The notes beneath the pieces were generated by a model. The model had not been told where the DNA came from. It worked only from the letters and a program-made list of their open reading frames with translations, and made no database searches. A stretch of 64,000 bases of DNA. Origin: Sphingopyxis yananensis (GTDB taxonomy: Bacteria; Pseudomonadota; Alphaproteobacteria; Sphingomonadales; Sphingomonadaceae). Both the position numbers and the translations under genes were made by a program. Of the stretch, positions 40,714 through 51,806 are shown one piece after another (position 1 is the first letter of the stretch; every line of letters begins with the position of its first letter). The stretch lies in the NCBI RefSeq assembly GCF_020687785.1, contig NZ_JAJEWI010000005.1:62001-126000 (forward strand), read 5' to 3'.

Positions 40714-40767
40714 TTTGGAAATATCATAGGAATGGCGGTTTTCCGTCATTCCTAACCAAATTAGTCG

Positions 40768-40829
40768 AAAAAAAGGGCCACCCGAGGGTGGCCCGTGAAA
40801 GTTTTGGGAGAGGATGCCTAAAAGGCAAG
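40768..40829 (-). ncRNA. Candidate small RNA with CU-rich anti-SD-like motif
   Basis: On the minus strand a promoter-like pair (TTGCGA at 40861-40856 and AATATC at 40838-40833, spacer 17) is followed by a 5' hairpin TGCC-TTTTA-GGCA (40827-40815). An unpaired CATCCTCTCCCAAAAC comes next, then a strong hairpin GGGCCACCC/GGGTGGCCC with seven U after it (ending about 40768). This layout is that of alphaproteobacterial trans-acting sRNAs with CUCC motifs, such as the suhB/MmgR group. No coding gene on the minus strand needs the terminator. Confidence 0.5.
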
Positions 40830-40974
40830 TGTGATATTGCACTGCACAATGATTTTCGCAAGTAGTAAATTGCTATTTGAAGTTGCAGTTTTTGCAATCG
40901 TGCATCCAAACTGGCACGAAGATCATGGCAATCCTTCTCTCGCATATTCCATGGAATTGGCTTAGGCAGCGTAT

Positions 40975-41503: not shown

Positions 41504-42517
41504 ATGCAAATCGGTCATGAAGAATCGCCGAGTCCTGAGATATTGAAACGCGATCGGCTGTGGATGGCGGCCTGTATTGCTTTGTCCCAGCGTGCGCGCC
41601 CTGACAGCGCACCCAACCCCAATGTTGGCTGTCTGATAGTCAGGGACGGGCATGTTGTGGGCCGTGGCTGGACACAGGCGGGTGGACGCCCCCATGCCGA
41701 GGCTATGGCCCTGCAACAAGCGGGCAGGCGGGCGCAGCGCGCTACCGTTTATGCGAGCTTGGAACCATGCGCCCATATCAGCGCACGCGGACCAAGCTGT
41801 GCCGATTTGCTGATACAGGCTGGCGTTGGGGAAGTGGTGATTGCCACCCAAGACCCAGACCCCCGCACCAACGGACAGGGCATTGCACGGTTGCGGGCGG
41901 CGGGCATCCTGGTGCGCCTGTCCTGTATGCCGGACGAAGCACGTCGGGCCATGGCACCATGGTGGACCCGCCAACTGCGCCAGCGCCCCTATATCAGCTT
42001 GAAATTGGCGACATCGCTGGATGGCTGCATCGCTATGGCGGATGGTAGCAGCCGCTGGATTACCGGCGATCGCGCCCGCGCCCATGGCCATTTGGAACGG
42101 GCGCGGCATCAGGCGATTTTGGTAGGGCGCGGAACCTATGACGCGGACGCGCCGACATTGGATGTCCGCTTGGCGGGCATGGAACAACGTAGCCCCAAGC
42201 GCCTGATGCTGACCAGCCAGCCTGCGCCAGATGGATGGACCGCGCTGGCATCGCCTGACGCTCTACGTGACCTAGAAGGCGTGGATTCGCTGTTGATCGA
42301 GGGGGGTGCCAAAGCGGCGGCTGCCTTTTTACAGGCGGATATGGTGGACCGGCTGCTGCTATATCGCGCACCGATTTTGCTGGGCGGGGGGCGGCCTTGT
42401 CTGGCGGATATCGGCCTTGAGCAATTGGCTGACGCGCATGGATGGTGGCAGCATCGCAGCCAGCACAGGCTTGGCAGCGATCAGTTGGACGTTTATGAAC
42501 GGATCAGGAAGGATTAA
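41504..42517 (+). CDS. ribD: Bifunctional riboflavin deaminase/reductase
   Basis: A 337-residue enzyme for the second and third steps from GTP in riboflavin synthesis. The N-terminal zinc deaminase has PNPNVGCLIV, HAEAMAL and the PCAHISARGPSC zinc motif (about 55-105). The C-terminal reductase domain has RPYISLKLATSLDGCIA and ILVGRGTYDADAP. It precedes ribE by 5 bases. Confidence 0.95.
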   Translation: MQIGHEESPSPEILKRDRLWMAACIALSQRARPDSAPNPNVGCLIVRDGHVVGRGWTQAGGRPHAEAMALQQAGRRAQRATVYASLEPCAHISARGPSCADLLIQAGVGEVVIATQDPDPRTNGQGIARLRAAGILVRLSCMPDEARRAMAPWWTRQLRQRPYISLKLATSLDGCIAMADGSSRWITGDRARAHGHLERARHQAILVGRGTYDADAPTLDVRLAGMEQRSPKRLMLTSQPAPDGWTALASPDALRDLEGVDSLLIEGGAKAAAAFLQADMVDRLLLYRAPILLGGGRPCLADIGLEQLADAHGWWQHRSQHRLGSDQLDVYERIRKD

Positions 42518-42522
42518 GCGCC

Positions 42523-43164
42523 ATGTTTACAGGAATCATCACCGATATCGGCCGGATTCGTAGCCGCGAAGATCGTGGGGATACGCGATTGGTGATTGCC
42601 ACCGTTTATGACCCTGCAACCATCGATATGGGCGCTTCCATTGCGTGTTCCGGCGCCTGCCTGACGGTGGTCGACAAGGGCACGGACGATAAAGGACATT
42701 GGTTCGCCATTGACGCCAGCGCCGAAACCTTGGCCTGCACCGCCGAGGGCATGTGGGATGCGGGCCGCCGGTTGAATCTGGAACGGGCGATGAAAATTGG
42801 CGACGAATTGGGCGGCCATATTGTGACCGGCCATGTCGATGGCGTGGGCCAAATGGTGTCGGTGACCCCCAGCGGCGATTCCGTCATCATCACCATCGCT
42901 GCGCCTGCCAGCCTAGCGCCCTATATTGCGGCCAAAGGGTCTATTACGGTGAATGGCGTGTCATTGACCGTCAACAGCGTGAGCGATCAAGCCAATGGGG
43001 ACGCGCATTTCACACTGAATATCATTCCTCACACCCAAGAAATGACCACGCTGGACGAAGCGGCAGCGGGCGTTTTGGTGAATTTGGAAATTGATATTTT
43101 GGCCCGCTACCTCAGCCGGATGAAAGATCGTTTTGCCGGCGGTTCCCTATCGCTAGCAGCCTGA
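42523..43164 (+). CDS. ribE: Riboflavin synthase alpha chain
   Basis: A 213-residue protein with two lumazine-binding repeats: MFTGIITDIGRI starts the first and GGHIVTGHVDGVGQM the second. SGACLTVV and VNGVSLTVNSV are the paired ligand loops. It dismutates two dimethylribityllumazines to riboflavin. The substrate-forming enzymes RibB and RibH are encoded 6 kb away on the other strand. Confidence 0.96.
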   Translation: MFTGIITDIGRIRSREDRGDTRLVIATVYDPATIDMGASIACSGACLTVVDKGTDDKGHWFAIDASAETLACTAEGMWDAGRRLNLERAMKIGDELGGHIVTGHVDGVGQMVSVTPSGDSVIITIAAPASLAPYIAAKGSITVNGVSLTVNSVSDQANGDAHFTLNIIPHTQEMTTLDEAAAGVLVNLEIDILARYLSRMKDRFAGGSLSLAA

Positions 43165-48739: not shown

Positions 48740-49402
48740 TTATCGCTGGCTCTGTTCATCCAGCGCGACCAGTTGGTCCACTATGCGCCGCCCGATTTCC
48801 GCCCGCTGACCCCATAAAATGGCAACCAGTAACGCATGAACCAGCACCGCTGATCCGGCGTCCTGCGACCAAATGAATATTTCGAAGATAATCAAACCAA
48901 TGAGGGTGATGAACAGTATTTTTGACACATGCTGACGTCCAACCTCGCCCAAACGGATATTGCGCGGTCCCTTGCTGTCCCACGCGGTGTTGGTGGTGAA
49001 CGCGGCGGCCTGATTGGCACGCAGCATAGCGGCTGTTTGTGGGTTGGCTAGGGTTCCGTTCTGCGACCCTTTTGCATGAGATTGCGGCTGGGGCGTTGAT
49101 TTTGCTGCAACCGCCGCGCCGTCCCATGGCGTTTGAGACTTGCGCTGCGTTTGCTCGGTGCGCGGCGAGCCTTTATATGACGGCGGCGTGTCGCCGGTTG
49201 GGAGCGCTGCAAAATGCGATGGATTTCCGCTGCGCGTCGTGGGCGCGGTGGCAGGGCGATGCCCTGCTTGTTCGTCCAACAAGGCCATACGCTCCGCTGC
49301 GCTGAGCGGCGGAGCGCCGGTTTCATTGTCAAACACCACCAGTCGACCTTTGATCTCTTTGATCGTCCATCGACTGGGAGGGGGTTTGTCAAGCAACGCC
49401 AA
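48740..49402 (-). CDS. Hypothetical protein with C-terminal membrane segments
   Basis: A 220-residue protein I do not recognise. The N-terminal 45 residues ([19 protein letters not shown]) look folded and basic. A long Pro/Ser/Thr/Gln-rich low-complexity linker runs from about 45 to 140. One or two hydrophobic helices follow ([17 protein letters not shown] and [14 protein letters not shown]), then a charged tail. It overlaps ribH by 14 bases, so it is co-transcribed with the ribBA-ribH unit, but no riboflavin role can be deduced. Confidence 0.65.
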
Positions 49403-49814
49403 ATTGTTCCTTTAACTGAAACATAGCCAGTGCAGCCTTGGCCGCTTCGCCGCCCTTATCCTTGCGTGTTTTATCCGCGCGGGCAAGGGCCTGTTCTTCA
49501 TTTTCGACGGTCAAAATACCATTGCCAATGGCCAAACCGTCCAGCGTCAGGGCCATGATGCCGCGCGCGCTTTCATTCGATACCACTTCGAAATGATAGG
49601 TTTCACCGCGAATGATCACGCCCAGCGCAACAAAGGCATCAAAACGTTGGGTTTGATCGCCCAGTCCAATGGCCGCAGGCACTTCCAATGCACCGGGCAC
49701 GGTGACGGTTTCATGGCTATGGCCTTCGGCTTCCAAGCTACTACGCACGCCGTCCAGCAGCATGTCGTTCAGATGGTCGTAAAAACGGGCTTCAACAATT
49801 AGGACGTGCGCCAT
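49389..49814 (-). CDS. ribH: 6,7-dimethyl-8-ribityllumazine synthase
   Basis: A 141-residue lumazine synthase: [48 protein letters not shown] with the catalytic His, and [18 protein letters not shown]. It condenses RibB and RibD products. It abuts the ribBA stop by one base. Confidence 0.96.
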
Positions 49815-51103
49815 TATTCAGTTTCCCCAGGGATAGAGCGTTCCGCGACGACCGATAGGCCATAGCCTTCCAATCCCACAAGATTGTTATGGGATGGGGT
49901 CAGCAATTCCATGGAACTGATTCCCAAATCCACCAAGATTTGCGCGCCAATACCATAGGTGCGCAGGTCCATGGTCGTGCCAGGGGCCGCAGGGGGCAGG
50001 GTGTCGATGTCCAGCGCACCAGGCAGGGGGCGCATCAGCATGACAATCACACCAGCGCCAGCATTGCCAATCGCCTCCATCGACCGTTGCAAACGGCGCT
50101 TTTTGGGGCCGGGGCGGCCCATGATATCATCCAGCATCGATACCGGATGCATACGGACCAATGTGGGCTGATCCGGAATAACATGGCCCTTTTGCAGCAC
50201 CAAATTGATCGTGCCATCGACCTTGTTCCGATAGGATTTCAAGCGCCAGTCGCCGCCATAATCCGATTCAAAAGGTTCTTCCGACACCAGTTCCACCAAA
50301 CGGTCGGTGCGGTTGCGATAGGCGATCAGGTCGGCGATCGTGCCAATTTTGAGGCCATGTTTGCGGGCAAAGGGAATCAGGTCATCAAGGCGCGCCATCG
50401 TGCCGTCATCATTCATGATTTCGCAAATGACGCCCGATGGGTTGAGCCCTGCCAGACGCGAAATGTCAACGCTGGCCTCGGTGTGTCCGGCGCGAACCAA
50501 AACACCGCCATCGCGCGCGATCAGGGGAAAGACATGGCCGGGGGTGACGATATCGTCCACGGTTTTTGATGCATCCACGGCAACCGCGATGGTGCGCGCG
50601 CGGTCGGCGGCGGAAATGCCGGTGGTCACGCCTTCGCGGGCTTCGATGGATACGGTGAAGGCCGTTTCATGGCGGGTGCCATTTTTACGGCTCATCAATT
50701 CCAAGCCCAATTCGTCGACGCGCGCCTTGGCGAGCGTCAGGCAGATCAGGCCGCGACCATGGGTGGCCATGAAATTAACGGCATCGGGGGTGGCCATTTG
50801 CGCTGGAATGACCAGATCGCCTTCATTTTCACGGTCTTCATCGTCGACCAAAATGAACATACGGCCATTGCGCGCTTCGGCGATAATTTCTTCGGCAGAG
50901 GCCATGGGCGAGACATCGCTGCCATGCTCCAGCCATTGTTCCAGCTTGCGCAGCGTTTCCGCCGTGGGATTCCAACTGGGGGAATCTAGGTCGCGCAGGC
51001 TGTTGGCATGAAGGCCCGCCGCACGGGCCAGACCGGAACGAGACACGCTGCCGTCGTCGACGATGGAGCGGATGCGATCAATGAGCTGTGTAGACATGCG
51101 CAT
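49814..51103 (-). CDS. ribBA: HTH-fused 3,4-dihydroxy-2-butanone 4-phosphate synthase with degenerate GTP cyclohydrolase II domain
   Basis: A 429-residue three-part protein. Residues about 15-58 form an XRE-like helix-turn-helix ([34 protein letters not shown]) not found in standard RibBA. Residues 68-268 are an intact RibB domain ([29 protein letters not shown]). Residues 285-428 resemble GTP cyclohydrolase II. However, the zinc region at 317-340 ([15 protein letters not shown]) lacks all three cysteines, so this half should not open GTP. A true RibA must be encoded elsewhere. Several inverted repeats flank the start. ATG 51103 or 51097. Confidence 0.9.
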
Positions 51104-51109
51104 GATGTC

Positions 51110-51145
51110 TCACATCAAAATGTGATCGTCAATAATTTATCACAT
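51110..51145. promoter_or_regulatory. Operator-like overlapping palindromes at the ribBA start
   Basis: TCACAT-CAAA-ATGTGA (51110-51125) is a perfect palindrome ending 7 bases before the ribBA ATG. Its right arm also pairs with ATCACAT at 51139-51145 (ATGTGAT at 51120-51126). Three copies of the ATGTGA half-site in 36 bases suggest a regulator-binding site covering the ribosome-binding region. Confidence 0.55.
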
Positions 51146-51179
51146 TAGATTGATCGCTCTGTGTGAGTGATCAATCTAA
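51145..51179. repeat. Long inverted repeat between ribBA and the ankyrin gene
   Basis: TTAGATTGATCGCTC (51145-51159) pairs with GAGTGATCAATCTAA (51165-51179) around TGTGT, with one G-T wobble. As minus-strand RNA it would fold into a 15-bp hairpin in the ribBA leader or just after the ankyrin gene stop. No T-tract follows. Confidence 0.7.
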
Positions 51180-51185
51180 ACCCTT

Positions 51186-51806
51186 TTATTGTGGTCCAAA
51201 AACGGCGCTACCGTCGCGCACGGCTACGTCAGATTTTGCATCCAAAGCCGATAAAATGCTGCCCGTGCGGTCGTCGCGCTGGGCATAACCACGGGCGGAC
51301 AAGCCCGCGACATGGTCGGATTTATCGGGATTCGCACCATTGCGCACCAACAAGCTGACCAAGGCCGTGTTGCGCGCCTGAACCGCCAAAATCAGCGCCG
51401 TTTCCCCCCGACGGTTGCTTTGATCAACAGGGGCTTTGCTACCCAGCAATTCTGTCGCACCATCCGTGAAATTCAACAAAGCGGCGTGCATTAATGGCGT
51501 CACGCCCTGACGGTCCGCAATGGCGGGGTCTGCGCCCTTGCCCAACAAGAAACGCACCCATGTGAGGTCCCGCCTTTTGGTGGCAATGGCCAGCGCGGTT
51601 TCGCCATTGTCGGGGTGGCGTGAATTGATCAACGTGCTGTCATTTTGCAATGCTTCGGTGGCTTTGGTGCCGTCGCGGCTTTCCACGGCCTTTAGGAAGG
51701 CATAGCCGCCACGAAATTGCGCTTGGGCGCTAGATGGGGCCAAAGTGGTGACGGCGGTCGCCAAGGCGATGGCCCATAGGGCATAGCGAAACTTCAAAAA
51801 CATCAT
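51186..51806 (-). CDS. Exported ankyrin-repeat protein
   Basis: A 206-residue protein with a signal peptide (LWAIALATAVTTLAPSSAQA, cleavage after AQA near residue 29). About four ankyrin repeats follow (GETALAIATKRRDLTWVRFLLGKGAD, GVTPLMHAALLNFTDGATELL, GETALILAVQARNTALVSLLVRNGAN, each in the usual 33-residue rhythm). Periplasmic location is inferred; partner unknown. Start may be 51806 or 51803. Confidence 0.87.
   Translation of the reverse strand: MMFLKFRYALWAIALATAVTTLAPSSAQAQFRGGYAFLKAVESRDGTKATEALQNDSTLINSRHPDNGETALAIATKRRDLTWVRFLLGKGADPAIADRQGVTPLMHAALLNFTDGATELLGSKAPVDQSNRRGETALILAVQARNTALVSLLVRNGANPDKSDHVAGLSARGYAQRDDRTGSILSALDAKSDVAVRDGSAVFGPQ

Follow-up and report, generated by a model that had tools for sequence, protein, structure and literature searches.

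The window analysed here is a stretch of 64,000 nucleotides from Sphingopyxis yananensis, a member of the Sphingomonadaceae. On its minus strand, an open reading frame of 429 amino acids (49814..51103) was verified. In agreement with the original prediction of a 429-residue protein with a complete RibB domain, Pfam recognises an intact DHBP_synthase domain at residues 71-262 (283 bits), and the RibB signature segments, including GHTE, are intact when aligned to E. coli RibB (1g57). Pfam also detects a GTP_cyclohydro2-like C-terminal domain (residues 275-421), which that prediction did not include. In this X domain the zinc cysteines are replaced: the segment HSECLTGDVFGSRRCDCG of the solved RibBA 4i14 aligns with one gap to a stretch of 17 residues. 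A second, intact RibA, carrying HSECLTGDVLGSLKCDCG, is encoded in the same genome (C1:360628-361116). An intact RibB, an X domain that lacks the cysteine segment and a separate intact RibA together identify the protein, by its sequence, as a RibBX, that is, a RibB with a degenerate RibA-like domain, here fused to an HTH-like head of about 60 residues (Table 1). No riboflavin kinase domain was found in the window protein, for which Pfam gives DHBP_synthase and GTP_cyclohydro2 only. The full-length AlphaFold model was too poor to use (pLDDT 55.8).

Table 1. Features at the ribBX locus, in window coordinates.
Feature	Position	Strand	Basis
HTH-RibBX coding sequence	49814..51097	-	ORF; start moved to 51097 (MSTQLIDR...) by homologues and the ATG position in the promoter profile
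N-terminal HTH-like head (residues 3-62 of the 429-aa ORF)	50918..51097	-	Weak profile and fold scores
Putative recognition stretch LHANSLR	50993..51013	-	L, H, N, L and R unchanged across 22 diverse members; role suggested by HTH layout
RibB (3,4-dihydroxy-2-butanone-4-phosphate synthase) domain	50318..50893	-	Pfam, alignment; GHTE segment present
Degenerate GTP cyclohydrolase II-like (X) domain	49841..50281	-	Pfam; alignment to RibBA 4i14; zinc cysteines replaced
ribH (lumazine synthase)	49389..49814	-	Downstream of ribBX, Pfam; co-transcription suggested by overlap
Candidate operator half-site 1, ATGTGA	51140..51145	-	Sequence
Candidate operator half-site 2, TCACAT on gene strand	51120..51125	-	Sequence
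Candidate operator half-site 3, ATGTGA	51110..51115	-	Together with half-site 2, makes up the core palindrome 51110-51125
Putative -35 box TTGACG (family consensus TTGACA)	51127..51132	-	Profile of 144 upstreams
Putative -10 position GACATC (family tendency TAnnT)	51104..51109	-	Profile; spacer of 17 nt is the core operator plus one base

The ribH gene overlaps the end of ribBX and is probably co-transcribed with it. The ribE gene lies apart, on the opposite strand (42523-43164), and the open reading frame before it (41504-42517) was taken by eye for ribD. Near the ribE region, a suhB/mmgR-type sRNA is matched on the minus strand (40760-40833) with 52.5 bits against an Rfam cut-off of 41.

The first part of the protein had been described as an XRE-like HTH of 45 residues. 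An HTH-like head of about 60 residues is plausible, at scores that stay below threshold in Pfam. Up to E 1, Pfam has no match for residues 1-62 of the window protein; at E <= 1, HTH_3 was matched by 10 and HTH_26 by 14 of 22 family members, with a best value of 1.5e-4 (HTH_3). No lambda-repressor-like/XRE HTH profile matched the head above its curated cut-off, either in the window protein or in the 22 members. A model of the head, made from 29 members (pLDDT 79.9), aligns with modest scores to lambda-repressor-like and POU-type DNA-binding domains, including HipB, SinR, P22 c2, C-proteins and HNF-1A/POU. DSSP assigns only three helices to this model (2-15, 20-27, and 46-59), and the expected recognition stretch is left without an assigned helix. 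Foldseek returned nothing at E <= 0.001 with the same model, and a profile search of solved structures gave nothing convincing for the head, the best hit being a T4 lysozyme (E 0.091). Residues A26, G30, L31, H32, N34, L36, and R37, together with a WNPT motif, are invariant across 22 diverse members.

With the N-terminal 73 residues as query, the head was matched in 239 of the 298 genomes of a Sphingomonadaceae sample, representing 75 of 96 genera; the 80 named loci include Sphingopyxis, Sphingorhabdus, Sphingomonas, Novosphingobium, Chakrabartia, and Aquisediminimonas. Not every one of the 59 family genomes that lack a head match carries a head-less RibBX: eight have no RibBX match, G361 has a weak RibA-like match only, and G324, G325, and G373 have a partial head in broken or contig-edge copies. 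Among these genomes 30 loci were read, of which 28 are complete without the head and two are cut by a contig end.

Upstream of the gene, three ATGTGA half-sites had been reported within 51110-51145, and all three were located. The distance from the palindrome to the gene had been given as 7 bases before the ATG, a value that changes with the start codon. Homologues start with MSTQ or an equivalent of it; in the window this is the ATG at 51097, six bases into the reading frame as called. Both the homologues and the promoter spacing indicate that the true start codon is probably 51097 rather than 51103, and this places the palindrome 12 bp from the start codon, not 6. By chance, 0.01 copies of the 16-bp core TCACAY-N4-RTGTGA would be expected per window (one of 100 shuffles contained it), and the pattern of three half-sites was found in none of 100 shuffles.

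When 144 upstream regions were anchored on the exact core, a -35-like consensus appeared just before it (T.78 T.91 G.76 A.65 C.74 A.62). Just after the core there is a weaker TAnnT (T.43 A.79, T.49), at a gap of 17 nt and followed by 6 nt to the ATG. The operator is thus predicted to occupy the RNA polymerase site between the -35 and -10 boxes. The usual promoter spacing puts the transcript start at or beside the A of ATG 51097, and a leaderless ribBX mRNA is therefore predicted; the first ATG (51103) would then probably lie upstream of the transcript start. The -10 hexamer of the window itself is poor, and a simple consensus promoter scan found no promoter on the ribBX strand. Between an ankyrin-repeat gene and the operator lies a strong inverted repeat, TTAGATTGATC...GATCAATCTAA (51145-51179), which is terminator-like on the plus strand and may insulate ribBX from its upstream neighbor.

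In 124 of the 298 family genomes, from 44 of the 96 genera, the strict three-half-site pattern is present; the reversed control gave none. Among 150 listed genomes of the 239 that bear the head, 96 of 97 pattern matches precede the head by 4-48 bp, the remaining one overlapping it; counted by genome, 94 have the pattern at this distance and one (G156) has it overlapping the head. The 56 genomes of the 150 outside these 94 were also entered as loci (5 + 51). The loci numbered 198 and, with duplicates and short ones left out, yielded 172 distinct head-bearing upstream regions for scoring. The core was present with at most two mismatches in 12 positions in 171 of these 172 regions vs. none of the 28 from head-less relatives. 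In the head-bearing set, 145 cores are exact, 22 have one mismatch, four have two and one has three (L150). The best cores upstream of the 28 head-less RibBX have three to six mismatches, and shuffled upstream regions reach two or fewer in about 1%. The comparison of homologues suggested in the original prediction thus yields an HTH without its palindrome in at most one of 172 upstream regions.

A wider scoring found the operator in 95 of 96 loci with the head and in none of 51 without it, and among the latter are 10 order-level outgroups, G260 and two contig-truncated loci; this scoring missed L137 and L148, both of which show the head and an exact core. Among the 80 named loci, 75 have three half-sites, three have two, and two have neither according to the script, one of these (L223) being scored so only because the script used an upstream start. 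Arrays of more half-sites were seen in G389, G298, G378, and G269, in which the three-half-site pattern occurs on both strands, and 10 of 96 pattern matches near ribBX read on the opposite strand. In one genome, the only such case among the 59 without a head match, a full three-half-site match lies away from ribBX (G146:C52:3633-3669), and the RibBX of this genome is head-less.

The gene neighborhood also differs with the head. In every one of the 28 loci lacking the head, ribE ends directly before ribBX, with the ribE stop codon no more than about 40 bp from the approximate ribBX start. By the same motif, ribE was found within 260 bp at 32 of 88 loci with the head, where the gap is mostly wider. 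The head therefore goes with a promoter of its own. A rapidly built tree of 142 proteins, computed with a simple model and with its long branches flagged, implies seven changes of the head, of which at least four are forced, and eight of the operator. Across four supported independent transitions, the operator follows the head in 3.9 on average. Because only four independent pairs are available, significance is out of reach (sign test, p 0.125), and the evidence is therefore mainly that of conservation. In addition, the operator adjoins the code for the head, so that one event can remove both and their joint loss is not independent proof.

Within the genus, the exact core is found in 58 of 60 genomes, in 61 copies, and the reversed control in 2 of 60. 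Of these copies, 58 lie 6-19 bp before a ribBX match; conversely, 58 of the 59 listed ribBX loci have the exact core, the one without it being that of G041. Two copies of the exact core are present in the genome of the window itself, one at ribBX and the other at C3:358696 (L062, around 1501); judged by eye, none of the reading frames around the latter is a riboflavin gene. If one mismatch is allowed, this genome has 8 sites vs. 2 in the reversed control. A regulon beyond ribBX-ribH is unsupported: three of the 61 genus sites lie elsewhere, and the second core of the window's own genome is away from riboflavin genes.

Control of riboflavin genes in bacteria is commonly ascribed to FMN riboswitches (RF00050). 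None had been seen in the original prediction, and covariance searches of the leader, the window and the rest of the genome likewise gave no match at the cut-off. In the family sample, searched with strict filters by which weak matches are lost, one of 298 genomes (G260) has an FMN riboswitch over the cut-off, and this genome has neither head nor operator. A head-bearing genome, G359, gave a match of 25.8 bits against a cut-off of 66.2. In G260 (L151, L066) a RibBA that is 48% identical lies about 1.7 kb downstream of the riboswitch, and its congeners G106 and G199 keep the head, which is suggestive of a local swap of control systems in this single case. In other families of the order, riboswitches were found in 5 of 39 genomes: in G063, G075, and G091 a RibB-only match is some 100-300 bp away, in G073 a contig-edge RibB match, possibly a cut-off RibBX, is about 1.8 kb away, and the fifth is that of G082. 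The replacement of a riboswitch by the HTH as an ancestral event is unsupported.

From these comparisons, it is highly probable that HTH-RibBX combines a riboflavin enzyme with a dedicated repressor of its own near-leaderless promoter. Self-regulation is well supported by the comparative evidence: the operator is kept wherever the head is, stands between promoter-like boxes and occurs almost only at ribBX. RibB is a dimer, and such a dimer would display two HTH heads. These would bind the TCACAT-N4-ATGTGA operator, with the third half-site about two helical turns upstream. The operator fills the stretch between the -35- and -10-like boxes, so that bound heads would shut RNA polymerase out of a promoter that drives a near-leaderless ribBX-ribH mRNA. 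Such a loop would set how much DHBP synthase and lumazine synthase is made, no FMN riboswitch being involved.

The palindrome could instead be the operator of a separate, stand-alone transcription factor, with the head of RibBX doing another job or being a relic. The weak scores of the head in Pfam, in the solved-structure profile search and in Foldseek are compatible with this explanation, as is the position of operator and head as neighbors, whose joint presence could be hitch-hiking. It is nevertheless unlikely, because about one site per genome, nearly always at ribBX, would be unusual for a separate regulator, the putative recognition stretch has residues that do not vary among diverse members and the operator accompanies the head almost without exception. 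It is also conceivable that HTH-RibBX activates its promoter rather than represses it, given that half-site 1 is upstream of the -35 box and the -10 boxes are weak. However, the best conserved core is located in the spacer between the two boxes, the classical operator position for steric repression, and we regard activation as very unlikely. An action of the inverted repeats as RNA, in the form of a leader hairpin or an attenuator, would be in line with the folding of the 131 nt at 51060-51190, which is better than that of shuffles (z -2.86), although the separate hairpin at 51145-51179 contributes to this value. All half-sites are upstream of the predicted transcript start, conservation is seen in the short half-sites while the gaps between them vary, and no Rfam match was found in 51060-51190, all of which makes an RNA element scarcely credible.

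As for sensing, the original prediction held that the HTH may bind the palindromes and couple flux or FMN level to ribBA-ribH expression. The part on self-regulation fits the conserved operator and its promoter-like layout, but the coupling to flux or FMN finds little echo in the enzyme domains. Conservation is similar with and without the head, at 0.88 and 0.91 for RibB and 0.64 and 0.67 for X (91 and 38 proteins, respectively). A search for sensor residues specific to the head-bearing group returned position 322 alone (S 0.92 vs. 0.58), and positions 247 and 265 are conserved in the head-less group only. With hardly any residue specific to the head-bearing group, metabolite sensing is therefore unsupported. 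The X domain is degenerate in outgroups as well, and is therefore independent of the head. We put forward only tentatively, as somewhat improbable, a flavin thermostat in which the X domain or the RibB active site would sense a flavin or pathway metabolite and signal to the head, which would open or close a leaderless promoter with the operator as its spacer, in a family largely without FMN riboswitches. If this were true, the X domain of RibBX proteins would be an allosteric sensor.

Proteins that join a metabolic enzyme to a DNA-binding domain are known from other systems. The archaeal bifunctional regulator RbkR unites a riboflavin enzyme and a DNA-binding HTH in one protein, as HTH-RibBX appears to do; the enzyme is riboflavin kinase in RbkR and DHBP synthase here. 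The trigger enzymes BirA, PutA, and NadR are metabolic enzymes with a DNA-binding domain that repress genes of their own pathways. HTH-RibBX, which has a conserved operator-like site at its own promoter, would resemble these enzyme-repressors but differs from them in the enzyme and in the DNA-binding domain, and the only conserved target found for it is its own gene. An actinobacterial RibR, which had been cited as a further enzyme-repressor, could not be confirmed: the RibR described in print is an RNA-binding flavokinase of B. subtilis (PMC7693651).

The closest relatives by architecture are the RibBX proteins described in the gamma-proteobacteria Shewanella oneidensis and Aeromonas salmonicida (PMC10012899). 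They likewise have a functional RibB and a GTP-cyclohydrolase-II-like domain without the catalytic residues, a separate RibA carrying out that step. For the X domain of S. oneidensis, a regulatory effect on RibB activity has been reported, its mechanism being unknown, and in contrast to the protein studied here, the available text on these two species describes neither an HTH head nor an operator of its own (PMC10012899).

No account of an HTH-RibB was found in the open PMC literature, which accords with the original prediction, whose author knew of no such description in sphingomonads. Judged by sequence, what appears to be new is the type of enzyme, the layout with the operator in the spacer and the family-wide use, while the working of an enzyme-repressor is known. 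In the Sphingomonadaceae sample, the riboswitch is nearly absent (1/298) and an enzyme with a repressor-like head is the rule (239/298). If confirmed, a single-target feedback loop at the DNA level would join the short list of enzyme-repressors, offer a concrete idea of what the puzzling X domain of RibBX might do and provide a compact regulated promoter for sphingomonad work.

Outside the family, no fusion of the head to RibB was recognised in the order and class samples. In other families of the order, the full protein was matched in 37 of 39 genomes, and the RibBA-length matches begin at residue 56-74, without the head. Two head-only matches in this sample fall in other reading frames, of 498 aa (G088) and 94 aa (G070). 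Twelve non-family genomes were matched in the class sample (385 genomes), at E 2.9e-11 or weaker and with no RibB in the frames shown, and 18 in the phylum sample (398 genomes), at E 1.3e-6 or weaker; in the class and phylum samples, members of the family score E 1.5e-29 or better and all others 2.9e-11 or weaker. Two small stand-alone proteins from other alphaproteobacteria (L244 and L245, frames of 78 and 110 aa) have the WNPT motif in common with the RibBX head, and small proteins of this kind are a possible source of the head domain. Finally, one genome of the same genus has, besides its head-bearing form, a second, head-less RibBX (G002:C2:61254-62324).
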